Source: a virus
Strand: one strand, 5' to 3'
DNA length: 32,950 bases
IMG/VR virus record: IMGVR_UViG_3300037189_026716
Location: 1 to 32,950 of that record
In this document: positions 3,001-32,950 of the stretch, piece by piece
Layout: every line of letters starts with the position of its first letter
Numbering within the stretch: the stretch's first letter is position 1
Program-made: the position numbers and the translations under genes
The notes under the pieces: generated by a model
Databases searched by the model: none
What the model was told of the DNA's origin: nothing
The model's input: only the letters and a program-made list of their open reading frames with translations

Positions 3001-6000
3001 TTGATGTATTAGCGAACGAGTCAACGGTTCGCAGTGAATCCCAGGTGTATTCAACGAATCGAGCCGGCTTCATGAGATAGCTAACCTGAGAGATTACAAA
3101 GGAATAGTCCTGAGAATATGTCCATGCGCTCTCAACCGGTGAGCCATCACCAAATATCCATTCAGATCTAGACGAATACACATCTGGTATAGATGCCACA
3201 CAACCAGCTGCATAAGGAGGCAGTAGATTTCCTTGATCATCAACTGGTATTGAACTCATCAGACCTGGGCGAGCCCATGCTTGATGTTGACCGGCACGTG
3301 CGCCTTGCCTGATGATGCCATCTCGAAGATCTTCCCACAATGCAGTGTTACCTCGAGTGTACGGAGACGACCCGTACTGTGCATCCCACCAAGCCGGCTT
3401 TTGGGTAAACCCGAGCATTTCCCATGGATGTGTATTTGGTCGATCAGTATCGTAAAACCATCGATAGATCCCTTGCCAATGACCAGGCACCGCTTGGCCA
3501 TTGAGATCGAGAACACTTCGATAGTTGTAAGAAAATTGATTGGTTGTATCGTATCCTGTATTCGCCCTAAACTCGATCTGGCCGTTGATCGTCCATTTAT
3601 CAAAGAATGATCGTTGGAGCCGCAAGGTCTCACTGCGGCTGTAGTCGCTAGAGCGCCATTTTCCTGGCATGTATTCCCTGGTATCAAATACCAGTGCAGC
3701 GTCTGGATCTCGATATCCGGTTGGAAGCCCGTTGTACAAATCTAGCTCAAATTTCAACCATGCTGCTGCAACCGGGTTGGTCAATTCTTCTGGATTTGTC
3801 GTCGAGGTTTGTCCATGAACAAACGTACCTAGCTGTTCACCTTGATCGTTCACCATGACGATGCGCGCACCGTCGTGTGTTTGTATCACCAATCTAGTAT
3901 CTGTATAGGTCCACGAGTCTAGATAAACAACCGGCTGATAAACCGGAGTTAGTCCCAATCGAGCAGGCGATGCCGGAACATAGGTCGGAGACGAGCTTTT
4001 CATCGAGCAATATGATCCGGGCATACCATCTGGACCACTATTAGCCCACGGGCTTGCTTGGGTCTTCCCAACATTGATTTGTGCCAGGGCGGAAGAGACC
4101 CATTGTGCGACCACATAAGGATCGCACGATCCAGAGGAGGACGCTGAGAATCCCTGCTTAGTCGACTGGCTAAACAACGCTTGCAGGAATCGATTGTAAA
4201 ATCTTTGATACGATCTCTGTGCAAACTGCATCGCTGCTATCGGATCGGCTGGCCCTTGTGTTGATGTTGCATCGTTGATACGAATGGTGTTCATCAGAGC
4301 AAGCTTGATCATCGGAGCACGGTGTTGTAATATCGACAGACCTAGCCCACGATTTTTTGCAGTATCTCGATAGTTGTTGCTACCAAGAGTTGTGCCGGTA
4401 AGACCTGTTTGGTTGCTGATAATATCGATGAACTGTTGCAAAAATTGGCTACGAGTGGTTGACACGATTTCATCGTTGTTCGGATTTGCGCGTAAATTGA
4501 GCGGAATTTCGTAATATCCAATTAGTTCTGACGGTGCGGTGCTGTTCCAGCTTTTAACTATCAATCTTGATCCTGGTATGATCGACGAAATTATCGATAC
4601 TATATTTCCACTAACCAAGTAGTCACTGCCGTTTCTCAGTTCAGTTTGGGTGCCATTTGGCGTTATTGAATATACCATTATGGTCGGCAGGGTATTTGGT
4701 ATCTGCACAGCCGGGGTCTGATCGATGCGATATTCAGCTTGATTTCTGGTTACAACAAATTCGTTAACGATGTATTGCCTGCTTGATGTGGGGGCAGAAT
4801 ACCACGAGTTCGAAAACTGATCGTCGCCGATACCGGCAAACAGATAACCGCTATAGGTCTGCTGGCGATTATCGCTGATGTAGTTTACGGTGTCTGATGC
4901 TAAATTGTTGATAAAAACATAATCACCGAACTGGTCGAGCTTGGCATTAATCCCAAGCTCCGAATCGAAGGATGAATTCTGATCCAACGTATATCCAAAC
5001 ACATGGCTGCCAGCAAATGTGCTCGACGGATAAATGCTAGGATCGTCCATTGCATTGCCGTTGATGTCATACAGTATGAATAACGGAGGTATCGTCGTGC
5101 CCTGTTTTTGCTGGCCAGATGACGACCAATTCATTCCATCATAATAGAGATTATATCCCTGTAGGGCGCCAAACTTAACGTTAACTCGATCACCGTACAT
5201 CGGAGATCCGTTTTGATCGCCATTCAATTGAACAACAGTGAGCTCAATTGCCCCGGCGATCTGTCCCGATACCTCATATATCTTTCCGTTGGTATTGAGA
5301 TTTTCATCGGCCAGTGGCAACACTCGCATACCGTCGCGCAGAGGAACACCGTCGATAGACCACGATGGCTGCCCAACGATAGATCCCAGGAAATCGCCAT
5401 TGGTAGTATCAACAAGATCCACCGATCCTTGGTTTCGAAAACCGTACTTGTACAAATTGATGTTGCTGTCAAACTCAATGATAGGGCGACGGGCTTGTTG
5501 TTGATACGGATCTGGATTGACTTCCTTGCTGAACTTGATAACATCAACGTGGAACCATCTATTGGTCGAACTCCATTGATTTCCATCCTTGCTAGCTCGA
5601 TTGATGGTTATGTATTGCTTGTATTCAAGTGAATCGTCTCCGCCCCAGCTGGACGTATCCCACGAAGTTAAATCCCATCCTGGGTTTGCCAGTGAAAATA
5701 TCTCAACAAGCTGTATCCCTTGACCAACAAGCTCAATGATAAATTCTCGACCATTGATCGAATCAGTTCGATCTGCCCGAGGTACGATTTTCATTCCAGT
5801 GGTAAACGGTAATGTAGTCTCGACCACTTCGCCGGTCGACTCGTACTTTATCGTTCCGGTATAAGTGTAGTTAAGGGCATCAACCACATCATTTAGAAGA
5901 TCAGTTGTGTCTAGCAATTCAATTGCCGCCGGGCCGTATGGTAACCAATAGTAGTTATAAAAGTTAACAAACTTATCAGCATCTATCGGAGGACTCCACG

Positions 6001-12332: not shown

Positions 12333-13937
12333 ATGCTTTCGGTTAATGCTACCGTTGAAAACACACGCAAGGTATTGAGGATCGCTACCAAGCACGGCTT
12401 GAAGGTCGATCCGCAAATCCATGAGGTCTTGAACAGCATACCGCGCGTGCGATGCATCCCAGGTTTTAAGTTCGAGCTCAAGGATTTCCAAGCCGACGGC
12501 GTTGCCTGGCTAGAAAGCCAGCTTGGCACTGGGCTGCTTGCGGACGAACAGGGCACCGGTAAGACCGTCCAAGTCATGGCTTACGCCCACAAGAATCATA
12601 TGTTCCCCATGTTGGTGGTGTGTCCAAACACGTTGAAATACAACTGGCGAAATGAGATCATCGCCATGACCGGCCAGACATATCGCATCAACATCATTGG
12701 TAAAGTTTACAGCCGGCGCCAGACCGAAAAGCGTGCATTACGGCATCCCAACGTGGTGTACAGCAAGGTGCCCGAAAACGGCTGCGACATCTACATCATC
12801 AACTATGATATCCTGGCTGCCAACGTGGATGCGCTTGAAGCGCTGAATCTACGGTTCATGGCCGTGGATGAAAGCCACAAGATCAAGAATCCGGACGCCA
12901 AGCGCACCAAGGCCTATACACGCCTTGCCATTGGCGAGATCGATGAAAAAAAGGCAGGGCGGTACGAAACCGTCAAGATCGGTCAAGGCGTTCAAAAGGT
13001 CGTGCTGATGAGTGGAACACCGATGGTGAACCGTCCCAAGGAGCTGTGGACCACCGTGCGTAGCATTGGTAGCTGGGTGCCGGAATTCAGCAAATGGAGT
13101 CGATTTGGATTCCGCTATTGTAATCCAAAGAATAACGGATACGGCTGGGATTTCAATGGTGCTAGCAACATCGACGAGCTCAATGGATTGCTAGCGCAGC
13201 ACATCATGCTGCGCCGCCTCAAGGTAGACGTTCTCAAGGATCTGCCGCCCAAGGTGTACCGCACCATTCCGCTGGATTTTGATCGCAGGGAATACGACAA
13301 GGTCGAATCCGCATTCAACGGTATTAATTGGAAGGCAGGGATGGAGACCATCATCCGCATGGGCGGAAATGCGCCCAAGAGTGATGATGCTATCGTTGCC
13401 ATCCAAAAGTTGCGCGAGATTGCAGCTTATGCCAAGCTGGATTCTACCATCGAGTGGATCCGAGACTACACCGAGGAAGGCGAGAAGATCGTTGTTTTCG
13501 CACATAATCGGTTAGTGATCGACACCATCCGAGATTCGCTTGAAAATGAAGAGGACTACCAGGGCGCGGTTGGTGTCATCTACGGCGGCATCAAGGACGA
13601 AGCACGGGCCGATGCTGTGCTGGCGTTCCAGGAGGACCCAACGGTCCGTGTGATCCTCGTGGGTATCACCGCTGGCGGATTTGGTCTCACGCTTACTGCG
13701 GCCAAGGCGGTGGCGTTTGTCCAGCTCCCCTGGACACCAGGTGAGATCAGCCAGTGCGCGGATCGCATTCACCGCATCGGGCAGGTTGCCGACACCGTAA
13801 CAGTATTCAACCTTGTTGCCGAAGGAACCGTCGAAGAAGAGATGGCCGACATGTTGATCAGCAAGGGGCAGGTTCTCGATGCGGTTCTTGATGCCGGGCG
13901 GGCGGTTAATACCCTGGATCTAAAGGTGTCTGCTTAA
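12333..13937 (+). CDS. SNF2-family helicase (SMARCAL1/UvsW-like DNA translocase)
   Basis: A 534-residue superfamily 2 motor. Motif I is DEQGTGKT (residues 71-78), motif II is DESHKIKN (179-186), and motif III LMSGTP follows. Motifs V and VI lie in the C-terminal lobe, where GGFGLTLTAAKAVAFVQLPW leads to QCADRIHRIGQ. The GFKFELKDFQADGVAWLESQ segment is the Q-motif region. Such proteins anneal or regress forked DNA; T4 UvsW does this job during recombination-dependent replication but belongs to another branch. The family resemblance is closest to SNF2 annealing helicases. Base use is visibly more GC-rich than the flanking small genes. The stop overlaps that of gp5 on the opposite strand. The upstream HARP-like protein is a probable partner. 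Confidence 0.92.
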   Translation: MLSVNATVENTRKVLRIATKHGLKVDPQIHEVLNSIPRVRCIPGFKFELKDFQADGVAWLESQLGTGLLADEQGTGKTVQVMAYAHKNHMFPMLVVCPNTLKYNWRNEIIAMTGQTYRINIIGKVYSRRQTEKRALRHPNVVYSKVPENGCDIYIINYDILAANVDALEALNLRFMAVDESHKIKNPDAKRTKAYTRLAIGEIDEKKAGRYETVKIGQGVQKVVLMSGTPMVNRPKELWTTVRSIGSWVPEFSKWSRFGFRYCNPKNNGYGWDFNGASNIDELNGLLAQHIMLRRLKVDVLKDLPPKVYRTIPLDFDRREYDKVESAFNGINWKAGMETIIRMGGNAPKSDDAIVAIQKLREIAAYAKLDSTIEWIRDYTEEGEKIVVFAHNRLVIDTIRDSLENEEDYQGAVGVIYGGIKDEARADAVLAFQEDPTVRVILVGITAGGFGLTLTAAKAVAFVQLPWTPGEISQCADRIHRIGQVADTVTVFNLVAEGTVEEEMADMLISKGQVLDAVLDAGRAVNTLDLKVSA

Positions 13938-16900
13938 CCGGTCGGGCCAGTAACTGCCAACGGTGCAGTTGACATGATGGTAACTCCGGTTGGACCAGTT
14001 ACCTGTCGAAGTCCGTCTGTGTAGCTGCCAATGAGATCTGACTGGCTCTCTCCGCCGCGGAAATCCGTTGCTGGTCCAGATATAAAGTTTATGATCTCAG
14101 CCCGGCGTCTCAACACCAAGCCGGGCAGTACCTGACCAACGGCGTTAACAGTATGCTGCATCCATGTATTTGGTACCTTTGAGAGGTTGTTTTCATTGAA
14201 ATTTTTCAGCGCATCTGAGCGTTTAAAATTGTTTTCGCCGATGTTGAATGCCAGGCTACAAAACATGTCGTATTGTGTCTGGCTAACTCCCTGTGTAATT
14301 TCTGGACGAACCCATTGTTGAACGACTTGTATGTCCTGATCAAACAATTCGTTAATCTGTTGTTGGGTCAGAGGTGCATTCAATTGCACATTGTCGCTAC
14401 CAATCCTAATAGTCTGGGCAGAGAGTTCCTCAGGTGTTAGCGTATGTCCATAGCCAATTTCTTGCTTCGGTGGGTTACCTACCTCTATCGGACGATAGCT
14501 ACCGTTTTCCCTGGAAACTATGAACTGTCGACCTTCATCGCTTAGAACCAAGCTGTTGGATGTCATAACGTTAGCCCGTCCGATCAACGTTGCCTCGTAT
14601 CTATACAGCGGCTGATTCCTAGAATTGTACGCAACTCCGCGATAGACCGCCGGCGGCATGTCACTGCGCGGGCTACCATATATGTCAAGAGGTGCATTGC
14701 TGTTTAGCGCTATTTCGCCATCTCGAAGACCAGTGTTGTTATTGATTTGCGTGGAATCACGTAGATTCTGGAAGTTACGTCCGCCGTGATTTTCATAGGG
14801 CTCGTGATGTGGCAAGTGGGGTAGTATCGTATCGGTTAGCACCACCACCGCATTGCCAAGGGAATTGAGAACTATGTCAGACTGCGGACGGCTGGCAGGT
14901 CCTTCTGCCAGCGCAGCAGCGGTAGCAGGTGGCGGTGGAGCGCCATTGAGATCTATCCTAGGCCCGTTGATGTTGATCTGACCGGCAGCACCGACAGTCC
15001 ACGCGCCTCTTGCCGATTCGTGAACAAAGCCGCCAGCAGCCCTGTTGATGTTCTGTCCGGCTGAATCAAACAGATTATTTCCTGCCAACCGATGCATGTC
15101 CTTGGCCGAAGTTATGAACATGTGCTGCTCAGACAAAAGGTGCATGCTGTTTCGGCTTTGCATCTTAATGTACCCGCCAACAACGGTAGTGTCAGGTGAG
15201 CTCAGCGGTTGGTCCTGGGCTGATGCACGGGTGGTATCGTTAACACCGCGCGTATATCCGTCGACCTCCCTGCCGCCAGCACCTATGCCCGCCAACTCAG
15301 GGCGGTTGCGGAACAAGTTAGCTTCGTTTCGGCGTCGCCTTGTTAGATCGGTTCCGTCCGATGCCCTGGTTATGGTTTGTTCAATCAGTGCTGCGGCGCT
15401 TTCTATGTCCCGTTGATTGACGAAATTGCTTAATCCTGCATCACGTAATCTTCCTAGACCACCACCTCCTGCGTTGTAACAAAAGCTGATCATTGATGCT
15501 TTTTGATACGGACCGAGCTGATCGTAGGTACCTCGTAAAACATTTTGTGCAGTTTGTTCGTACTTACGTAGATCAACCTGGAATATGCCCTCTGCCTGTT
15601 CAGCATTACATGTGGTATTTTCTCCATAGGTGCCAACGATCGGTACCTGTCCGGCAAAACCGGCATCGATATATGCCCGTTGCCTGCTTCTAGACGACAG
15701 CTCGTTCATGCCCATGTTATGGCCGAAGGCAATTGCATAGTTTATCGACTGGCGAGGCGGATCGCGATACGCTCGCAGCGACGGTTGGCCTCGACCTTCT
15801 TCCTGTTTGATAAACTGCGATGCAATGGAGATGTAGTTGAGATTTTCACTAGCTCCGGTTGCACTTGTGGGTGAAGCAGCCGCACCAGGAGCAACCGGGC
15901 CAGTTGGTCCAGTTTGTTGCGATTGTATGGTCGCAGGGGTTGTTGCGTTTTGACCGCGCAATCTCTGCACTTCTGTATTAGCAGCTGATTCCAAATACAA
16001 CATTGCCCGCATCTCTGCCGGGGTATAAAGGCTTGGATTGGCCCGCCCAAACTCAACCGCAGATCTATACTGGGCTGCTTTAGCTTCAGCATCCTCCAGC
16101 GACCTAAAGGTACCCGTATTATATGGTCCATATGGCGTTTGGCCAACACCTCCGGCGCTTGCACCAGTTACACCGTTAACTACCGCATCCGGCGACGGTA
16201 TGCACAAGGCCCGCGCATCATTGGCCACCAGCGCGTAATCCCTGGGATGCAGATTATCCGACGACGGGTATCGGCTGAGATTAAGGGTCTTATCCCCCTT
16301 GCTGTCAGCAAATGTTTTAACCGTTGCTTTCAACACATCGTCGTATGGTAGCAGCCAAATATAATTATTAGATGCTAGAGAAGTTCGAATTGAATCGAGG
16401 TTAGACGTTAATGTTGATTGATTTCCCTGTGGCCCGTCATTGCTACCAACGCTGAGTATGGCATTCACGGAATTTTGAATGCTGGTGTTTTCCCTAACCC
16501 GTACGGCAATCTCCGTTGACGATTCGCCTACCACGGCTGATACTACCGCGCCTTCTATTCTGGAGCCAACTCCCTGTGCAATGCTGTCTCCGACCACAAC
16601 AATGTTACCAGTTGCTGGCAGCGACGGTGGCGGGACACCAGCCGTAGACGATACTCCCGCAGTTGTCGGTTTTCCGCGAGCACGCATGTTAATGTCACGA
16701 CCAGCTTCAATGTTAACATCTAGGTCGCCCCGTATGTTAATGCTGCCCTGGCTCCTCAAGGTGATATCATCCTGTGCATAGATGTCAACCTTGCCAGTTG
16801 CATCCATGCTGATCCAGTTCTTACCATCAACGCTGTTTAGATAGATAAATCCAGACGTGTCGTTAATCATGATTTGAGCGCCGCTTTGCGTTCTAAATCT

Positions 16901-17569
16901 GATGTAGTTATTGGTAGGACTGTCATCGAACACCATTTGGCTACCGCCCGGTGTTAATATACCGTAAATCGAATTAGCCGGTTCGGCCCTGCGGGCACCA
17001 CTGTCACTGACTCCTCTTATGGTATCAACGTTTAATCCCTGCCTTAAGAGACCCTCGGCCAATGGAGAATATTCCGGTCTTACCGGATTATTTAAATTGG
17101 TGTTAACAACTTTCTTGTTGTATTCGGCAACTGGAGTGCTAGCAGTGCTGTCTTGCCCGGGCAATCCAGGCACCATGTGGTTCATGTTTTGCTGGTATAA
17201 ACACCCTAGCCATATTCCTCTAGCCGGATCCCCATTGATGAATGCGCAAACTACCTCGTTGTTCACATCTGGCGGTATGAACCACATGCCGTAGCTTTTT
17301 TGCGTGCCTGCAAAGGTGTTTTCGTTTTTATTGTCATAAATGCTAGTCGCACCAGCAAACGGTGAACAGTAGCTAACGATGAACCAACCATTTTCGTCAT
17401 TTGGGTCACCGTTGAGTTCTGGTATCCAGACCTTCAGTCGGCCCATGCGTAGAACATCATCAGCTACCTTGATAAATCCAACATAAAATTTGTCCTGCAA
17501 GGTTCCTCGGCCAGGAAGCTCAAGATCATAGCTGCGCGGAGCATTGATGTGTCTTGTTAGGGTTACCAT
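13934..17569 (-). CDS. 5: Giant gp5-like baseplate spike with SGNH hydrolase and two lysozyme-like domains
   Basis: This 1211-residue protein is a multi-enzyme version of T4 gp5 (575 residues). The N-terminal OB-fold region (to about residue 130) contains GRLKVWIPELNGDPNDENGW. A beta-prism-like repeat region (to about 300) ends in SINIRGDLDVNIEAGRDINM. An SGNH/GDSL hydrolase follows: GDSIAQGVG (near 328), GSND (near 375) and DNLHPRD (near 440), matching the catalytic Ser, Asn and Asp-His blocks. A first GH24 lysozyme-like domain spans about 583-745 (FIKQEEGRG, AFGHNMG, SFCYNAGGG). A second spike-type segment follows, then a second lysozyme-like domain (about 1005-1165: SDEGRQFIVSREN, EIGYGHTLT, LAFNIGENNF). 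Both have unusual residues at the T4 Thr26 position. AAGGA lies before the ATG. It would cut the cell wall during infection. Confidence 0.9.
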   Translation of the reverse strand: MVTLTRHINAPRSYDLELPGRGTLQDKFYVGFIKVADDVLRMGRLKVWIPELNGDPNDENGWFIVSYCSPFAGATSIYDNKNENTFAGTQKSYGMWFIPPDVNNEVVCAFINGDPARGIWLGCLYQQNMNHMVPGLPGQDSTASTPVAEYNKKVVNTNLNNPVRPEYSPLAEGLLRQGLNVDTIRGVSDSGARRAEPANSIYGILTPGGSQMVFDDSPTNNYIRFRTQSGAQIMINDTSGFIYLNSVDGKNWISMDATGKVDIYAQDDITLRSQGSINIRGDLDVNIEAGRDINMRARGKPTTAGVSSTAGVPPPSLPATGNIVVVGDSIAQGVGSRIEGAVVSAVVGESSTEIAVRVRENTSIQNSVNAILSVGSNDGPQGNQSTLTSNLDSIRTSLASNNYIWLLPYDDVLKATVKTFADSKGDKTLNLSRYPSSDNLHPRDYALVANDARALCIPSPDAVVNGVTGASAGGVGQTPYGPYNTGTFRSLEDAEAKAAQYRSAVEFGRANPSLYTPAEMRAMLYLESAANTEVQRLRGQNATTPATIQSQQTGPTGPVAPGAAASPTSATGASENLNYISIASQFIKQEEGRGQPSLRAYRDPPRQSINYAIAFGHNMGMNELSSRSRQRAYIDAGFAGQVPIVGTYGENTTCNAEQAEGIFQVDLRKYEQTAQNVLRGTYDQLGPYQKASMISFCYNAGGGGLGRLRDAGLSNFVNQRDIESAAALIEQTITRASDGTDLTRRRRNEANLFRNRPELAGIGAGGREVDGYTRGVNDTTRASAQDQPLSSPDTTVVGGYIKMQSRNSMHLLSEQHMFITSAKDMHRLAGNNLFDSAGQNINRAAGGFVHESARGAWTVGAAGQININGPRIDLNGAPPPPATAAALAEGPASRPQSDIVLNSLGNAVVVLTDTILPHLPHHEPYENHGGRNFQNLRDSTQINNNTGLRDGEIALNSNAPLDIYGSPRSDMPPAVYRGVAYNSRNQPLYRYEATLIGRANVMTSNSLVLSDEGRQFIVSRENGSYRPIEVGNPPKQEIGYGHTLTPEELSAQTIRIGSDNVQLNAPLTQQQINELFDQDIQVVQQWVRPEITQGVSQTQYDMFCSLAFNIGENNFKRSDALKNFNENNLSKVPNTWMQHTVNAVGQVLPGLVLRRRAEIINFISGPATDFRGGESQSDLIGSYTDGLRQVTGPTGVTIMSTAPLAVTGPTG

Positions 17570-23535: not shown

Positions 23536-24114
23536 ATGTTGATACCCGATCCGTGCTTGTGGGATATTTCTATGACGGCAAGAGAAGTTGCCGTAAAATT
23601 AGAAGTTCATCCAATTACAATATGGCGATGGCGCAAAAAACTTGGAATCAAGATGTCAATAGGTGCTAAACCCGGCAAAGCGGTACCTAAACGGATTAAA
23701 CGAGAAGCAAGGACGTGTGTTGCAGAAGGATGTAACAATTCATTTGTCACCGTTCCATCGGTTAAGAAACGATTCTGTTCTCATCGATGCCAGGCCTTGA
23801 CTCGAAAAAGTTGGTTGACAAGAAAAGCGCCCAGAAAACGAAATCTAAACATGTCGACCTGGAAGAGATACCTACGTAATGTCCATGGTGCGAGTCAACG
23901 GATTTATGAAGCAAACATCGATAGGATCAATCCTAATCGACACCCGCGAACCCTTTGTGGTGTAGAAGGTGGATGGCAACTCGATCATATTATCTCAATC
24001 AAGGAATGCTTTGCTAGAGGTATGACCGTAGAGGAAGCATCGTCGATAGAAAACCTTAGAATGCTTCCATGGAAGGACAATCTGATGAGGTATTACAATG
24101 GCTCTCATAATTAA
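23536..24114 (+). CDS. HNH homing-type endonuclease inserted between gp47 and gp46
   Basis: A 192-residue protein with three parts. An N-terminal helix-turn-helix (TAREVAVKLEVHPITIWRWR, residues 14-33) should bind DNA. A Cys-pair zinc motif follows (C61, C66, C81, C85: CVAEGC then CSHRC). The HNH catalytic core is WQLDHI (147-152) with Asn173 and a final NLMRYYN. Such free-standing genes cut an intron- or gene-lacking allele and spread by repair, and they are common guests in T4-like genomes. The ATG lies one base after the gp47 stop, and the stop overlaps the gp46 start by 17 bases, so the gene has been fitted tightly into the operon. The insertion point is exactly between two co-acting nuclease subunits. 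Confidence 0.88.
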   Translation: MLIPDPCLWDISMTAREVAVKLEVHPITIWRWRKKLGIKMSIGAKPGKAVPKRIKREARTCVAEGCNNSFVTVPSVKKRFCSHRCQALTRKSWLTRKAPRKRNLNMSTWKRYLRNVHGASQRIYEANIDRINPNRHPRTLCGVEGGWQLDHIISIKECFARGMTVEEASSIENLRMLPWKDNLMRYYNGSHN

Positions 24115-26535: not shown

Positions 26536-27321
26536 ATGAGAAATAATCCAGAAACAACTCAACCAAAGCGGCGGTCTACCAATCGACGTACATTTGAAAT
26601 AGACGTTAATCGCAATGTCGAACATCATTTGAAGTATTTTATTAACCAAGAGCTTGGTTATTTTAATGTGTTAGTCGAAAAGCTAACTCCTCCACTTCGA
26701 GCGTTCCCACAGGTCTTCATGGGACTCAAGGACAAGGAACGAAAGATCTGGGAGATCTGCGCTGAGAATGCGGTTGATCCGCAAAAATTGCTGGATCATC
26801 CGACCGAACAATGGCCGGAACATCTTAGGACCTTTGCCAGCTCCATTCGAGAGCCAGATGGTTCTCCGAAGATATCACCAGCACAGATAACCATCATGAA
26901 GATCGCGGCCGAACCGGCACGATTGCATAAAAGCGTGAGACGTGCGATGGCTCTGGAAATATTGAAATACATGATCAACCAAGCTGATACCTTGCACGCC
27001 GGTATGAAAACGGAAGGACTTCGATCACCAACACAGCTTCTACATACCCAAAGCTTGGATACCAAGCGCCATTTGCAAATACCAGGCGATTTGATCAAGG
27101 TTAGTTTCGATCAAGAAACCAACAGCAGCATGGTATCGATACCATACACCGTTGATCCGTTACGCATCAACGGATTTGACATCAGCGATATAACCTTTAA
27201 ATCGGCCATCATTCGAGCACCACATCCAATCAATGGTGACGGCAAGTGGTACATCGATTTCAAGGATACTGGCGGATATTCCGTGACACTGAGTGATCAC
27301 AATGAGCGAAAGCGGAGATAA
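26536..27321 (+). CDS. Protein of unknown function, 261 residues
   Basis: I do not recognise this protein. The ATG at 26536 follows AGGAAGG, a strong ribosome site; the frame is open to 26482 but the upstream part is promoter. The N-terminus is basic (PKRRSTNRRTF), then helical (HHLKYFINQELGYFNVLVEK). A second helical part contains KSVRRAMALEILKYMINQ. The C-terminal third is beta-rich (MVSIPYTVDPLRINGFD; GKWYIDFKDTGGYSVTL). There are no membrane segments and no metal motif. A strong promoter and a hairpin right after the stop mark it as its own transcription unit, so it could be an early gene. Nothing here identifies a job. Confidence 0.8.
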   Translation: MRNNPETTQPKRRSTNRRTFEIDVNRNVEHHLKYFINQELGYFNVLVEKLTPPLRAFPQVFMGLKDKERKIWEICAENAVDPQKLLDHPTEQWPEHLRTFASSIREPDGSPKISPAQITIMKIAAEPARLHKSVRRAMALEILKYMINQADTLHAGMKTEGLRSPTQLLHTQSLDTKRHLQIPGDLIKVSFDQETNSSMVSIPYTVDPLRINGFDISDITFKSAIIRAPHPINGDGKWYIDFKDTGGYSVTLSDHNERKRR

Positions 27322-27534
27322 AAAACAGGGCAGGTATAAAACCTGCCCTGTTGCACTCGGCTCAGTTATAACGGAACGTTGGCTCAGGACGTTCACAAGA
27401 CTAGTATGTAAAAACACCAATAGAAGGTCTATAAAGCTTGAGATTTTTCCCAAAATCCATGAAACAATCAATACCACGACCACAGCAACGATCGAGATCA
27501 TGCCAATCAAGATTTTCGACCATTGACGCTGCAT
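27160..27534 (-). CDS. Doubtful small membrane protein
   Basis: A 124-residue minus-strand frame begins MQRQWSK and runs into a clear membrane helix (ILIGMISIVAVVVVLIVSWI), then a second hydrophobic stretch (SSFIDLLLVFLHTSLVNV). Its N-terminal half lies where no plus-strand gene is convincing. Against it: the terminator hairpin falls inside the frame, the last 160 bases are antisense to the 261-residue gene, and no Shine-Dalgarno precedes the ATG. If real, it might be a lysis or membrane-associated peptide read only up to the hairpin. Confidence 0.3.
   Translation of the reverse strand: MQRQWSKILIGMISIVAVVVVLIVSWILGKISSFIDLLLVFLHTSLVNVLSQRSVITEPSATGQVLYLPCFLSPLSLIVITQCHGISASILEIDVPLAVTIDWMWCSNDGRFKGYIADVKSVDA
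27326..27350. terminator. Strong hairpin, possible bidirectional terminator
   Basis: A perfect 10-base stem (CAGGGCAGGT / ACCTGCCCTG) with a 5-base loop begins four bases after the stop of the 261-residue gene. On the minus strand it is followed by six T's (a standard intrinsic terminator). On the plus strand only TT follows. So it may end both the plus-strand gene and a minus-strand transcript coming from the gp26 side. Confidence 0.75.
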
Positions 27535-27725
27535 TGTGTTTTAATTACCGAAGAGAATTTGATCTCATCGTAAATGAGACATACAATGGTTTGTCGACCG
27601 AACGTCGTCAAATTCTATGGACCCTAACAAGTCCACACTTAATGAAACAACCAAGCTCACTAGAACCAAAAACCAGGCTCACAAACGCACTCATACAGGC
27701 TCATGAAAATCTCCCCACCATCTAA
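27459..27725 (+). CDS. Doubtful small protein
   Basis: A plus-strand frame ends at 27725. Its last 60 residues (for example REFDLIVNETYNGLSTERRQ and NALIQAHENLPTI) look like natural helical protein, but the start is unclear. ATG at 27459 or TTG at 27534 are options; neither has a ribosome site. It overlaps the minus-strand membrane frame. I record it because the C-terminal part has sensible composition; it may be a decayed gene. Confidence 0.3.
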   Translation: MKQSIPRPQQRSRSCQSRFSTIDAALCFNYRREFDLIVNETYNGLSTERRQILWTLTSPHLMKQPSSLEPKTRLTNALIQAHENLPTI

Positions 27726-27774
27726 AATACAACATATCATCTAGACTATACTGATCACATACTGGCCCAATCAT

Positions 27775-28207
27775 GGTGGTGTTGCCACCTGGTGAAAGGA
27801 TAACGGCGAGGTTATCAAACTCACCACGGGAGATCTGCTGACAGCTCCCGCCAGAAAAATCGCGAAAAGGATCACGGGATCCGTGTGACAACACCCCCGT
27901 GACGCGTGGCCTGCCCCTGCATGGTAGCCTCGCGGCTTGGAGAAAATCCATAACCGAACGTGGGACTGATGGTCCCGAGAGTAGCACCCGCAAGCTGGAA
28001 ATAGGCGTTCCGCCAGCTGGTTGATCAGAACCAAGGGTGATTGCAGCATGGCCGACGACTCATCAGAAGCGGACCAATCCTCTCCCCGCAAGGGGAGAAG
28101 AATGGCTTCAAATCTATCAGAATCAGACGTAGATAAATGCGTTGTGTGTTGAAAGAGATGAGCTTGCGAATCGAAAGAAACACACAACTGATGGGCGTTA
28201 GCCCATC
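27775..28207 (+). ncRNA. Candidate large structured RNA, class unknown
   Basis: About 430 bases without a convincing gene contain at least ten consecutive perfect or near-perfect hairpins. Examples: GGTGG/CCACC (27775-27789), GATAAC/GTTATC (27799-27816), CGGGAG/CTCCCG with an inner CTG/CAG (27827-27850), CACGG/CCGTG (27873-27885), GCGTGGC/GCCTCGC (27904-27933), GGGAC/GTCCC (27962-27976), AGCTGG/CCAGCT (27993-28018), TCTCCCC/GGGGAGA with a GCAA tetraloop nested in GAAGC/GCTTC (28066-28109), a 10-base stem GTTGTGTGTT/AACACACAAC (28141-28188), and GATGGGC/GCCCATC (28190-28207). The GNRA-type loop argues for the plus strand. It does not show RNase P, tmRNA, tRNA or group I/II intron signatures that I know. 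The last stem overlaps the end of the minus-strand gp26 extension. Confidence 0.55.
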
Positions 28208-28442
28208 ACCCAATTAGCTTGCTGTTGCTCTTGCCGCTTGCCGCTTCGTAGTGTTTCTCAATGACCTTTGACATGGCTGATCGCTGATCAGCAGACAACA
28301 AATGGCTGTCCTCGAAACTAAGCCCGCCCTGCATGTAGAAAACCAATGTGGAAAGATCCTTGGTTATGGCCTTTCGATTGCGCTCCATCGTGTTGATCAT
28401 CTCAACAATGAGATCTGGATCACCGGTTAGGAGCGTTTGGCG
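28206..28442 (-). CDS. Predicted -1 frameshift extension of the gp26-like protein (tail assembly chaperone style)
   Basis: The frame is 78 residues plus stop when read from the shift site. It has an ATG at 28400 (64 residues, MINTMERNRK...) but no convincing ribosome site. Upstream of that ATG the frame stays open only to a TGA at 28458-28460, ten bases before the slippery site, and contains no ATG, GTG or TTG. The intervening codons read sensibly (RQTLLTGDPDLIVE then MINTME). A motif FYMQGGLSFEDSHLLSADQR resembles small proteins I have seen after gp26-type genes in large T4-like phages. Fusion gives about 358 residues. In lambda-like phages a shifted G-T pair acts as a chaperone for the tape measure; here the tape-measure-like gene lies next door. 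If there is no shift, it is an independent 64-residue protein. Confidence 0.65.
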   Translation of the reverse strand, partial: RQTLLTGDPDLIVEMINTMERNRKAITKDLSTLVFYMQGGLSFEDSHLLSADQRSAMSKVIEKHYEAASGKSNSKLIG

Positions 28443-29281
28443 AAAAAACTTGTTGGGTCAAAGCTCAGCGCATCCTCCCACTGGTTACCACAGCTTTCGC
28501 AAACCACTGGCACCTTCTTGGTAACTCCCACGGCATTGAGCTTGTTTACCGCCTCGATGACCAAATCGGCTTGTTGCTTGCTGATACCCATCAACCATTC
28601 ACTGATATGTGCTCGATCAGTTACTGTAGCGCCTTCCTTGATCAATTCAATCTTTTCAATGCTGCGGCTTACTAGCTCAAAGGTGATGTGGCTGAGACGA
28701 TCAACGCTTTCACCCAGCACCGCGGCCTTGGTGATGTCGTCCATTTCCTGATTGGACATTTCTAACGCACGCATGGCGCGTTCTTCCTCAAACTCTCGCT
28801 TGATGAACAGCTGGCGCATTTCAAAATCATACGGCTTCACATGCACGATGAGATCGTCATTGAACTTCATGGCAAGATCACCGTCGTCAACAAAGGATGT
28901 GTTGTCAAGCAAGGCTTGGCAGTTTAAATCAAAGGTGTTTTCGTGTGAGCAGCTTGGGCACTTGCGATCGTATTCGACCTTGCCGTTGTTGGTAGCTGAC
29001 TTGATGCCGACAAAAATGGCTTCGAGGTCCGGCAGGGTTAATCGCTTGACGTTCTTCACGTCTGGCACGCAGCTGGTAACAACCTTTTCCAGCGCTTGTC
29101 CGTTGAGCATGGCATCTGGAGTGTTGAGCATGATGTCGTCGATGGCAGCCATGGGATACACGGCTACTTCATTGTCCTCGGTCATGCTAACCTCACCGTT
29201 CTTGTACCAAAGCCCTCGGCTTGGTAGTCTCACATACAGTGACGGTTGGCGAAAGTATCTCTTGAGTGGATTTGATGACAT
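28427..29281 (-). CDS. 26: gp26-like baseplate hub/tail assembly protein with two Cys pairs
   Basis: A 284-residue protein of the T4_baseplate type. The N-terminus MSSNPLKRYFRQPSLYVRLP, then a YPMAAIDDIMLNTPDAMLNG block, and a KRLTLPDLEAIFVGIKSATN block are the family pattern. Two Cys pairs occur: KCPSCSHEN in the middle and VCESCGNQW near the end, likely zinc-binding. T4 gp26 is 208 residues and absent from finished tails, an assembly factor. The start at 29281 is my choice from family similarity; an ATG at 29308 adds nine residues. The last codons contain the slippery heptamer. It diverges from the tape-measure-like gene. Confidence 0.87.
   Translation of the reverse strand: MSSNPLKRYFRQPSLYVRLPSRGLWYKNGEVSMTEDNEVAVYPMAAIDDIMLNTPDAMLNGQALEKVVTSCVPDVKNVKRLTLPDLEAIFVGIKSATNNGKVEYDRKCPSCSHENTFDLNCQALLDNTSFVDDGDLAMKFNDDLIVHVKPYDFEMRQLFIKREFEEERAMRALEMSNQEMDDITKAAVLGESVDRLSHITFELVSRSIEKIELIKEGATVTDRAHISEWLMGISKQQADLVIEAVNKLNAVGVTKKVPVVCESCGNQWEDALSFDPTSFFAKRS
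28442..28448 (-). promoter_or_regulatory. -1 ribosomal frameshift slippery site (T TTT TTC)
   Basis: On the minus strand the bases read TTTTTTC in the register T TTT TTC of the gp26-like frame (Ser-Phe-Phe), a standard X XXY YYZ heptamer. The zero-frame stop is 12 bases further on. A six-base-stem hairpin (28399-28414) lies about 27 bases downstream, further than usual, so a stimulating structure is not certain. Confidence 0.65.
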
Positions 29282-29292
29282 GGTTTTGGTCC

Positions 29293-29300
29293 CATAAATA
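29293..29300 (+). promoter_or_regulatory. T4-type late promoter element (CATAAATA) for the tape-measure gene
   Basis: CATAAATA differs by one base from the T4 late consensus TATAAATA read by gp55. Transcription would start near 29306 and give a leader of about 50 bases before the ATG at 29360. A looser copy on the minus strand (GGTAAATA, about 29312-29319) could serve gp26. Confidence 0.45.
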
Positions 29301-29359
29301 GAAGTCATGGGTATTTACCAGGATTAACCGGGTATATTTCCATCAATGCGGTAAGAAAT

Positions 29360-32300
29360 ATGGCAGATCAAGATTCCAGCATAACAAACATAGACGATCA
29401 AGCACTGCGCCAACTGGGCACCCTAGGGTGGGCCAAGGAAACCACGCTTGAAAGCATCCTTAGAAATTCCAACATCAGTTTGAGACTGCTCGGTCAGCTG
29501 GCAAAGTCAGGTGGGTTGGACCAAGCTGCTATCGACAAGCTGACCAAGGAAATACAAAACACCAATCAACAAACGCGTCAAACCAACAATGAATATCGCC
29601 GACGGGGCAGCAGTCGCGATCGTGATGATAAATTACCGCCGGCGGCAAAGCAAGGTAAGTCAATTCTCACCAACATGCAAGCCGGTATGAAAATTGGACA
29701 ATCTGATACAACTGATTTCAGCAGGTCGCTAACTGATGCCGGGGCAGGAATTGGTAGATTTGGCCAGGTTTTACGAAACAATGTACCCGTCTTTGGTACA
29801 GGTCTCGGTATAGTTACCAGCGCGTTTGCAACACTTACCGTGGTTACCGGAGGATTGATCGACGCACTCAAGACCACCACCGACATGTCTCGTGGATTAT
29901 ATGCACAGGGCATACGGCCAGCCGAGGGAGGGTTTAATTCATTTGCAGATGCTGCTACGCAAGCTGGCTTAGGGCTCGGTGCGTTTAGCCGTATCATGGG
30001 TAACTTTGGTGCGGTTACCGCATCTCTTGGTACTCAACGTGTGCAGAGATTGGCTGGACAGATGAGCCAGATGTCTCGGCGCGGTGCTGATTTCATAATG
30101 ACGCAGGGCGAAATGACCACCGCATCGCTAGAAACCATCGAAATGATGCGCCAAAGCGGTGAGATACGGGGTCTTACTGATCAACAGATCGTCGGTCGAA
30201 CGATGGATACGGTGAGAAACTTCGATCAACTGAGCCAAGCAACTGGTAGGAATCGAGACGAGCTAAGAAAATCAACCGCAGAATTGTTAAGAACCACAAG
30301 AATGTATGGACTACAGCGCGCAGCAGGCACGGCAGGTGCCGGTAGTGTTCGAGGTTTAACCGCGGCGTTGAACGCTACTTTTGGCGCCGCAGGTGCCGGA
30401 CAGTTAGGAGAAATGATAGAAGGCATGTTCATGGGCGGACCTGCGTTGATCAGTGAATCCATGCGTCCGCTGCTGTCAATTGTCCCCGGATTTGCAACAT
30501 CTCTCGAGGATGTTACGGCCGGATTAAGATCCGGCAACCTAGATGCGCAACAGGCATCTGAACGCATGTCTGCTATCTTTGCTAACATGACAGAAGATCA
30601 AATGAAAGCCCTGCGTGCAGCAAGACCAGAGCTTTATAATTTCGTTCGAGGTTTGCAGCAGGGATCAGAAGCGTTTAGACAAGAGCAGGCACGCCGAGCA
30701 TTGCTCACGACCGAAGAACGGGAAGCCGAGGATATCCAACGGCGAAACTTGTCCGAGAGCCAAGAAGCATTCAATGAATTTAATGCCGGAATTAGTTCAA
30801 TTGGCAACACGGTAACAGCACTGCTAGGTGATGTGGCAAGAGGCCTTGCTCCGATTCTGCGACAGTTTGGACGATCTCTAACAACAGCATCAACAACCAT
30901 TAGAGAAAAACTCGGACCGTATATAACTAGATTCGGTGATTATCTAAAAAATAATATGGAATCCATAATCACTAGAATAACAACGGCATTTGATGACTTC
31001 TTCAAGTGGTTAGACAAGGAAGAGGGCCAAGGCGGATTTAGCGATTTCATGAAAGACGTTCGAGAATTTGGCACCGCCATTAGGGCTATGTTGCCTGATT
31101 TTGGATCCATTCACGAGTTTTCTAAAGGTCTTGGCGGAATGTTCGGCGGAGGTGCCGGTACAGGATATGCGATAATGGCTGCCGGAATACTAGCAGCGCC
31201 TGCGGTTATCACAGCAGCCGTGGCACTTATGGGATTGTTAATGGTCAGAACCGGTCTTGGTGCATTACGAGGATTAGGTAGGCTCGGCGGTCTTAGCAGT
31301 GGTGGTGGCGCTGCTGCGGCGGGAGGTGGCGGCGCGGCCGCAGGCGCCGCCAGGGGCGCAGGAACAGCAGCAGCGGCTCGGGGACTTGGCGGTACGCTTA
31401 GGGCATTGGTACCAGCTGCTGCCTCCTTTAGCGCAGCGGTGGTTGCAGCAGCTCCTGCCATAGCGATCATAACCGCTGCAATAATTGGATTGGCCGGTGC
31501 GTTGAGATTAGCCGCGCCCGCACTTGAACCACTTGGTAAGATGATACGAGAAGTATTTGTCGGTGGTGCGGCAATCGTTCAAAGCTTTGGGTCGGTTATC
31601 GGAAATATTGGAACCTTTATCAGGGATGGACTATCCGGGGCAGGCGCACTTCTTACCGGTATTGGTACTGCAATCAACCAAGGACTATCCGGAGCAGGCG
31701 AACTATTGCGGAGTGTTGGATCAGCAGCACAGAGTTTTGGTACTGCAATCAACCAAGGACTATCCGGAGCAGGCGAACTATTGCGGAGTGTTGGATCAGC
31801 AGCACAGAGTTTTGGTACTGGAATTAGATCTGGATTTGAAGGAGTTTCTGCGCTGGTGAACAGCGTTGGAAAGGCAATTGATTCGGCATTCTCTGGTGTA
31901 TCTCAGGTTGTTACGTCAGTTGGTACCCAGCTTTCAAACATGGTCAATTCTTTTAGGGAACTGCGAACCGCTAACGTTGACGCTACTACGAGGCAAATCA
32001 CTGCCCTCAGCGAAATTTCTAGCAATAACTTAGAAGGTTCTGCTCGTGGCATTGAAGCCATGAAACGCGCTCTAGAAGGATTTAATCCAGGAATATTGCA
32101 AAGCCTCAGCGAAGGGTTAGGTCGACTTATAACGGTTGATCCTGCGACAAAACTAGATAGATTGGTCAGTGTCGGACTAGCGTTAGACGAATCTTCAACC
32201 AATATCACACAATTTAGGGATAAGATATCAGATCTGTTGACACTGCTTAACGACGCAAACCTGGCACGGATCAACACGATTGGTAACATGTTTGACCGAA

Positions 32301-32950
32301 TTGGCCAAATATTCAGGGGAGGTATTAACACGCGACAGGTACAACCGTTAATAGATGTTGTATCATCGTTGGTACGCCAGATTAGCGCAGTAACTACCGA
32401 ACAGCTGATGACGATACCGGAACAAAGTTTTGATCGACTTAGGCAAATGGCAACACTTCTTGGTAACATTGGTACAATACTCAATTCGGATCTAAGTCGA
32501 GAACGTCTACAATCAACAATTGAAACGATTAGATCGTTAATGTCTGAAATCAATCCAGTATCAAGCCCCGGTGGGTTGCTTGGGTCACCGTTTGGTGCCG
32601 AATCCCTTGCAAGACCCATGTCAATGAATTTTGATCAGCAAGAAATTATCAACGATTTTAATCCACTTGTGCGACCAATGTCGATGGATGCCGGTTGGCA
32701 GGAAGTTATCAACGATGCTGAGGGTGTTTATGAGGCGGTATCAACAATGTCGTCGGCTTGGCAAGAAGTCATCAATGATGCCGAAGGGTTTTACGAAACC
32801 GTTGAATCATTGGATACTATGCGATCCATTACATCAGAAATCGCTAAAGAATCTTATTTAACAACCATTGCTGATGGATTTGGATTGATTCAAACATCAC
32901 TAGCAGCAATCATGCTTGATCTAGAAAAGATCCGTGTTGACCCAATTGAC
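29360..32950 (+). CDS. Tape-measure-like tail protein, partial (C-terminus beyond right edge)
   Basis: The plus-strand frame is open from ATG 29360 to the window end, 1197 codons, all read. It has the make-up of a tape measure: long Ala/Gly/Gln-rich helices, two hydrophobic segments (about residues 600-640, for example TGYAIMAAGILAAPAVITAA; and about 680-720, VVAAAPAIAIITAAIIGLAG), and repeats. An Ala/Gly-rich linker lies between them. T4 gp29 has 590 residues, so this is at least twice as long, implying a longer tail if it is the ruler. No lysozyme or peptidase motif appears in the part seen. The ribosome site is weak. The gp26 pair on the opposite strand may be its chaperones. A virion protein ejected into the host is an alternative. 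Confidence 0.85.
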   Translation, partial: MADQDSSITNIDDQALRQLGTLGWAKETTLESILRNSNISLRLLGQLAKSGGLDQAAIDKLTKEIQNTNQQTRQTNNEYRRRGSSRDRDDKLPPAAKQGKSILTNMQAGMKIGQSDTTDFSRSLTDAGAGIGRFGQVLRNNVPVFGTGLGIVTSAFATLTVVTGGLIDALKTTTDMSRGLYAQGIRPAEGGFNSFADAATQAGLGLGAFSRIMGNFGAVTASLGTQRVQRLAGQMSQMSRRGADFIMTQGEMTTASLETIEMMRQSGEIRGLTDQQIVGRTMDTVRNFDQLSQATGRNRDELRKSTAELLRTTRMYGLQRAAGTAGAGSVRGLTAALNATFGAAGAGQLGEMIEGMFMGGPALISESMRPLLSIVPGFATSLEDVTAGLRSGNLDAQQASERMSAIFANMTEDQMKALRAARPELYNFVRGLQQGSEAFRQEQARRALLTTEEREAEDIQRRNLSESQEAFNEFNAGISSIGNTVTALLGDVARGLAPILRQFGRSLTTASTTIREKLGPYITRFGDYLKNNMESIITRITTAFDDFFKWLDKEEGQGGFSDFMKDVREFGTAIRAMLPDFGSIHEFSKGLGGMFGGGAGTGYAIMAAGILAAPAVITAAVALMGLLMVRTGLGALRGLGRLGGLSSGGGAAAAGGGGAAAGAARGAGTAAAARGLGGTLRALVPAAASFSAAVVAAAPAIAIITAAIIGLAGALRLAAPALEPLGKMIREVFVGGAAIVQSFGSVIGNIGTFIRDGLSGAGALLTGIGTAINQGLSGAGELLRSVGSAAQSFGTAINQGLSGAGELLRSVGSAAQSFGTGIRSGFEGVSALVNSVGKAIDSAFSGVSQVVTSVGTQLSNMVNSFRELRTANVDATTRQITALSEISSNNLEGSARGIEAMKRALEGFNPGILQSLSEGLGRLITVDPATKLDRLVSVGLALDESSTNITQFRDKISDLLTLLNDANLARINTIGNMFDRIGQIFRGGINTRQVQPLIDVVSSLVRQISAVTTEQLMTIPEQSFDRLRQMATLLGNIGTILNSDLSRERLQSTIETIRSLMSEINPVSSPGGLLGSPFGAESLARPMSMNFDQQEIINDFNPLVRPMSMDAGWQEVINDAEGVYEAVSTMSSAWQEVINDAEGFYETVESLDTMRSITSEIAKESYLTTIADGFGLIQTSLAAIMLDLEKIRVDPID
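31662..31811 (+). repeat. Exact 75-base tandem duplication in the tape-measure gene
   Basis: Two identical 75-base units (31662-31736 and 31737-31811), each 25 codons, start TTGGTACTGCAATC and end in CAGAGTT. Weaker, diverged relatives flank them (GGACTATCCGGGG upstream near 31627, and TTGGTACTGGAATT at 31812). The reading frame is kept. The perfect identity indicates a recent duplication. Confidence 0.95.
32612..32820 (+). repeat. Degenerate 20-23 residue protein repeat near the right edge
   Basis: Three related units share the core (W/Q)QEVINDAEG. They run RPMSM...QQEIINDFN, RPMSM...WQEVINDAEGVYEAV and TMSSAWQEVINDAEGFYETV, starting near 32612, 32672 and 32741. Codons have drifted, so the repeat is older than the 75-base duplication. 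It may continue beyond the window. Confidence 0.7.

Follow-up and report, generated by a model that had tools for sequence, protein, structure and literature searches.

In phage lambda, a −1 frameshift near the 3' end of the chaperone gene associated with the tape measure gives rise to a short form (G) and a fusion (GT), and the passage of a 2016 review that deals with it states that this shift is conserved in long-tailed phages 'except T4' (PMC5009743). The tail assembly chaperones of T4-like phages are the subject of Vladimirov, Gautam and Davidson (2022, Virology 566:9-15), taken here from passages of two later papers. In the PRFect paper (PMC10885494), some T4-like phages are described, with reference to this study, as having short and fused long chaperone genes and no shift; in the paper on phage Adele (PMC12846349), poly-T signals are mentioned, with the same reference, as known in TAC-N genes of T4-like phages. 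Since both papers cite Vladimirov et al. for it, the central idea of the present analysis was already in print in 2022. The Adele paper also describes, in the passage concerned, a chaperone gene of Pakpunavirus and Vandenendeviridae in which the −1 shift is conserved, TAC-N ends with a poly-T signal and the tape-measure gene lies downstream. No description of a shift in RaK2-like jumbo phages was found in the literature searched, in which Vladimirov et al. figures only through citing papers, so that this result says little.

The DNA analysed here (the window) is a stretch of 32,950 nucleotides. It was found in a 452,799-base IMG/VR contig with 0 mismatches across the 6,879 bases compared, and the phage is therefore a jumbo phage. 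A blastn search of window positions 27000-30500 against phages returned no match, and an Rfam scan (gathering cut-offs) and a tRNA scan of the window were both empty. The features of the locus are as follows.

28427 to 29281, minus strand: zero-frame gp26-like gene, predicted short tail assembly chaperone (TAC-N), assigned by PF12322, phrog_150 and an alignment of jumbo-phage proteins
28442 to 28448, minus strand: slippery heptamer T TTT TTC, in the register X XXY YYZ
28427 to 28429, minus strand: zero-frame stop TAA, 12 bases past the heptamer, with four sense codons between
28206 to 28457, minus strand: −1 open frame, open from 28457 to a stop at 28206
28398 to 28400, minus strand: first ATG of the −1 frame, inside the conserved segment
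28381 to 28435, minus strand: possible RNA stem-loop, 6 nt past the heptamer, outer stem CGCUCC/GGAGCG, a speculative stimulator
29360 to 32950 and beyond, plus strand: tape-measure-like gene, an open ORF that runs off the window (phrog_1272, 2e-19; phrog_58, 8e-12)

The anatomy that the initial annotation had described for a −1 frameshift was confirmed. The heptamer at 28448-28442 lies at the end of the gp26-like gene in slippery register, the zero-frame codons AGT TTT TTC permitting tandem −1 slipping; the stop (TAA, 28429-28427) follows at the distance claimed; and the −1 frame is open from just upstream of the heptamer to 28206, the part from 28442 down to 28206 encoding the 78-aa C-terminal segment (TAC-C) of the predicted long form plus its stop. 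The earliest ATG, GTG or TTG in this frame is at 28400, and inspection by eye revealed no Shine-Dalgarno-like stretch at normal distance before ATG 28400 or 28388, as had been claimed. The position beside a tape-measure-like gene on the opposite strand was borne out as well: that gene adjoins the chaperone gene and is divergent from it. For the divergent neighbour in RaK2 and 121Q, the two relatives tested, the only match was to a 'virion structural protein' family.

The gp26-like product has 284 aa when read from ATG 29281 and 293 aa from the in-frame ATG 29308. The former is likely the translation start, with GGGA upstream and an N-terminus as in the relatives. The protein matches PF12322 (T4_baseplate; E 1e-16, 61.7 bits, curated cut-off 24.5) and phrog_150, named 'baseplate hub' (6e-19). 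As in lambda G/GT, a chaperone gene associated with the tape measure would undergo a −1 shift close to its 3' end and yield a short form and a fusion. The lambda heptamer, GGGAAAG, differs from that of the window, and the lambda chaperone genes are co-directional with gene H, unlike the divergent pair here. With the chaperones of T4-like phages the locus would share the short and long forms, and it has the poly-T slippery signal found in some of them; it differs in being one gene with a predicted shift on the strand opposite to the tape-measure gene. The Pakpunavirus and Vandenendeviridae chaperone, in a different phage group and with its tape-measure gene downstream, resembles it in that the −1 shift, predicted here, is conserved and TAC-N ends with a poly-T signal.

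A simple possibility is that such a heptamer occurs at this place by chance. In 7,862 codons from 16 window genes, 25 in-frame X XXY YYZ heptamers occur, among them a single T TTT TTC, at 28448-28442, and a single T TTT TTG. Phe-Phe pairs number 12 in the same genes, and the form T TTT TTC is used for one of the 12, at the end of the gp26-like gene. A T TTA AAC, a second known slippery type, at codon 126 of the gp26-like gene was set aside, being absent in the relatives L023 and L137. A stronger test than these window counts is whether the heptamer is kept in relatives. Because it is kept, the combination of heptamer and open −1 frame at the end of the gp26-like gene is not due to chance.

For this comparison, tblastn with the window protein gave 109 phage records, some of which are unconvincing; Synechococcus phages account for 47, those listed having E near 1. 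Loci were fetched from 15 named relatives, SCTP-2 and S-CAM8; the first 16 of these provide the aligned jumbo-phage proteins, which are 25-32% identical to the window protein, several being annotated 'baseplate hub'. All 17 fetched relatives have an open −1 frame and an in-register T TTT TTC, which takes the form T TTT TTT in XacN1 and RAS14; they include SCTP-2 (L018), in which a PF12322 match is absent. When the window and IMG/VR loci were included, heptamer and open frame were present at 36 of 36 jumbo loci (34 TTC, 2 TTT), corresponding to 28 distinct segments. At cyanophage-type loci the in-register heptamer, together with an open −1 frame, was found in 78 of 80 (74 TTC, 2 TTG, 2 TTA). 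The two exceptions are L074, which runs off its contig, and L089, whose frame is broken early; read from its end, L089 contains the heptamer and the −1 segment and makes a 79th such locus. A further set, picked from IMG/VR by two N-terminal motifs only, comprised 80 loci, three of which (L151, L191 and L202) run off. The in-register heptamer and the open −1 frame were present in all 77 readable loci, representing 42 distinct sites, with T TTT TTC in 73, T TTT TTT in 2 and A AAT TTT in 2. These counts are not independent trials, because near-copies are many, there is a slight overlap between the sets, in which the window contig and L023 appear repeatedly, and all loci are related by descent. 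Left out were L022 (a copy of the window) and L122 (runs off), while L058 and L077, being truncated, stand outside the C-terminal set. At the margin of detection, LR756511 (L021, a 595-kb uncultured phage record and a weak tblastn match to gp26, E 0.01) has T TTT TTC in register at 3699-3705, with 90 codons open in the −1 frame; matches to ACG-2014f (E 0.8) were discarded as apparently unrelated to gp26.

The columns of the IMG/VR alignment point in the same direction. Across the 33 distinct sites that align without gaps, entropy at the heptamer is zero, and the distance from the heptamer to the zero-frame stop ranges from 3 to 33 bases in this set. At the level of the alignment, codon-periodic, protein-like conservation of the −1 frame starts right after the heptamer, the mean entropy over its first 13 codons being 1.27, 0.94 and 1.62 bits at codon positions 1, 2 and 3 (33 sites). 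In L139 and L140 (2813-2819), the variant A AAT TTT stands in place of T TTT TTC; there the zero-frame Phe-Phe has been lost and the site nevertheless stays slippery, which points to selection on slipping and not on amino acids. The comparison of gp26 relatives that the initial annotation had proposed thus came out as it expected: heptamer and downstream frame are kept, and start codons are not. Of the T4-related loci examined, jumbo-type and cyanophage-type, no readable one lacked the signature, a result to be set against the 'except T4' of the 2016 review.

Taken together, the results make it very probable that the two tail assembly chaperones of a T4-related jumbo phage are encoded here, as a short form and a −1 fusion. 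The anatomy of the locus, its conservation and its homology to T4 gp26 and gp51 are established as properties of the sequences; the slipping itself, its rate and, on the model of lambda, the binding to the tape measure are inferred. Most ribosomes would read the gp26-like frame to the TAA and produce the short form, while a minority would shift back by a single base at T TTT TTC and continue as far as 28206, producing a fusion of 358 aa (from ATG 29281) in which an added segment, predicted to be mainly helical, follows the common N-terminal domain. By analogy with lambda G/GT, the tape-measure protein would be covered by copies of the common domain, and tube subunits would be recruited by the rare long form.

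The 2022 study reportedly describes the shift as conserved in several T4-like groups and names 26 and 51 as the genes concerned in T4. T4 gp26 and gp51 both match PF12322 across the full profile, and gp51 continues in a tail of about 48 aa beyond it. In profile-profile alignments (hhalign), the cyanophage −1 segment was aligned with the gp51 tail with a probability of 97.1 over 52 columns, and the conceptual cyanophage fusion with gp51 with 99.0 over 238 columns, nearly end to end. The jumbo fusion was aligned with the cyanophage fusion with 98.2 over 282 columns; directly against gp51 the jumbo sequences gave weak values (37.0 for the −1 segment against the tail, 35.2 for the fusion against gp51). 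By these alignments, the link from the jumbo phages to gp51 runs through the cyanophages. L131, whose frame breaks at residue 120, had been removed from the gp51 set.

The number of gene copies divides the phages in the same way. Each of the 17 shift-bearing records with a PF12322 match has one copy, and T4, RB43 and Aeromonas phage 31 have two each. No T TTT TTN was found in the last 120 nt of these six genes, although another X XXY YYZ heptamer occurs there in three of the six, as in T4 gene 26 (T TTA AAG, 103 nt before the stop). Unlike the window locus, T4 26 and 51 are separate genes, divergently transcribed. A tree of 44 chosen rows (15 jumbo, 13 cyanophage, 8 gp26 and 8 gp51), with no rooting other than at the midpoint, places gp26 and gp51 as sister clades with moderate support (89/74), joined next by the cyanophages and then by the jumbo phages. 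The profile alignments, the split in copy number and the tree suggest that the short form corresponds to gp26 and the predicted fusion to gp51. To judge from these comparisons, gp26 and gp51 look like a G/GT pair, made by a predicted shift here and by two genes in T4. The suggestion in the initial annotation that they are the same kind of chaperone pair is therefore supported by the shared PF12322 domain and by the likeness of the gp51 tail to the cyanophage −1 segment, and it is not new. The window locus appears to be a new, well-supported example of a published chaperone type; what is gained over the 2022 work is breadth and a clean contrast in copy number.

The shift might be real and its products be hub components or some other factor, not chaperones of the tape measure. 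The database labels 'baseplate hub' speak for this reading, and a passage of a T4 review cites genetic work as placing gp26 in the hub itself. The same review, in the part concerned, counts gp26 and gp51 among the chaperones of hub assembly and describes gp51 as needed, absent from the particle and of unknown function. In addition, the rows of the CBB virion proteome table pass, in the portion concerned, from CBB_247 to CBB_251 without CBB_250 or CBB_249, and PA5oct gp336 carries no mass-spectrometry note, whereas gp334, gp335 and gp343 carry one. Both observations agree with a chaperone that departs before completion of the virion, and a hub role is accordingly considered unlikely. As to the records of CBB_250 themselves (KU574722, L216), the database labels this short chaperone 'structural protein', a label unsupported by the table passage, and a passage of the CBB paper presents CBB_250 as an 894-aa lysozyme, a description that fits CBB_240 instead and is apparently a confusion.

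Structure searches were uninformative, and none argues against a chaperone fold. With the model of TAC-N (pLDDT 85.1), Foldseek returned nothing at E 0.001 or better. In a VIA search its best match had Z 7.2 and rmsd 3.1 over 72 residues and was helical, and a fifth or more of the rows cover only residues 157-259. For TAC-C (pLDDT 75.5, pTM 0.50) the best Z was 4.1. No chaperone was matched in the structure searches of either model, and sequence-profile searches of the PDB yielded no hit with E under 0.3. In the gp26-like protein of the window, Cys117/120 and Cys270/273 form two CxxC pairs that are invariant in the 17 aligned jumbo proteins, an invariance that suggests zinc binding.

The −1 frame might also be a small gene in its own right, with translation re-initiating, independently or by coupling, at ATG 28400 or at a start close to it. 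Many relatives are indeed annotated with a separate small ORF, in several of which the ATG overlaps the zero-frame stop, and a start (TTG counted) lies at most five codons from the heptamer in 9 of 41 distinct IMG/VR sites. However, the frame of PA5oct contains no ATG, GTG or TTG at all, and in RaK2 the first start lies far inside. ATG and GTG are missing from the first 13 −1 codons in 39 of 42 distinct IMG/VR sites, and yet the frame is conserved like a protein right after the heptamer. T4 gp51 is, moreover, a natural fusion of both parts. We regard a separate gene as very unlikely. The initial annotation had counted an independent strong start in homologues against the shift. Starts (ATG, GTG or TTG) no more than four codons from the heptamer do occur: among distinct segments, 10 of the 28 from jumbo phages and 22 of the 48 from cyanophages have one, but the heptamer is kept in each of these. 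In view of such starts, re-initiation may serve as an additional route in some phages. Under the preferred reading, a ribosomal shift, the small 'hypothetical' ORFs that follow gp26 should be joined to it as candidate products of ribosomal slippage.

That the frames are joined by RNA polymerase slipping on the T run (six T in the window, seven in XacN1 and RAS14), and not by the ribosome, is highly improbable, as six T is short for transcriptional slippage, L139 and L140 obey X XXY YYZ with a T run of only five, and the cyanophage variants T TTT TTG and T TTT TTA also keep the pattern.

A structure in the RNA downstream of the heptamer was considered as a stimulator of ribosomal slipping. The stem-loop of the window gave z −2.73 and −3.69 in two folding runs; that of L023, a 68% relative, gave −5.48, and in L137, a 55% relative, it does not form. 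Being strong in the window and L023 and unformed in L137, the stem-loop is left as speculation. A general stimulatory structure was rejected: the 70 nt past the heptamer at 29 distinct sites (28 jumbo-type and S-CAM8) showed no clear excess of structure, the mean z being −0.84 against −0.22 in 366 control windows (one-sided p 0.067). It is conceivable, as a tentative proposal that we think more doubtful than probable, that recoding and gene duplication are interchangeable solutions within one gene family, the −1 shift being the older and having been replaced in the T4 lineage by duplication of the gene into 26 and 51, and that the lineage of the window added a stem-loop that tunes the ratio of the two forms. 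If so, jumbo phages and cyanophages would have retained the single-gene shift, and in T4 one copy (26) would supply the short form and the other (51) the fused long form.

Two other regions of the window may be recorded. Between SbcD-like and SbcC-like genes there is a small ORF at 23536-24114 (plus strand) that matches HNH endonucleases weakly. At 13934-17569 (minus strand), a gp5-like hub protein of 1,211 aa is encoded, whose lysozyme domain is near the C-terminal end (residues 1037-1158), unlike T4 gp5, in which a passage of PMC5259590 places the lysozyme domain centrally.
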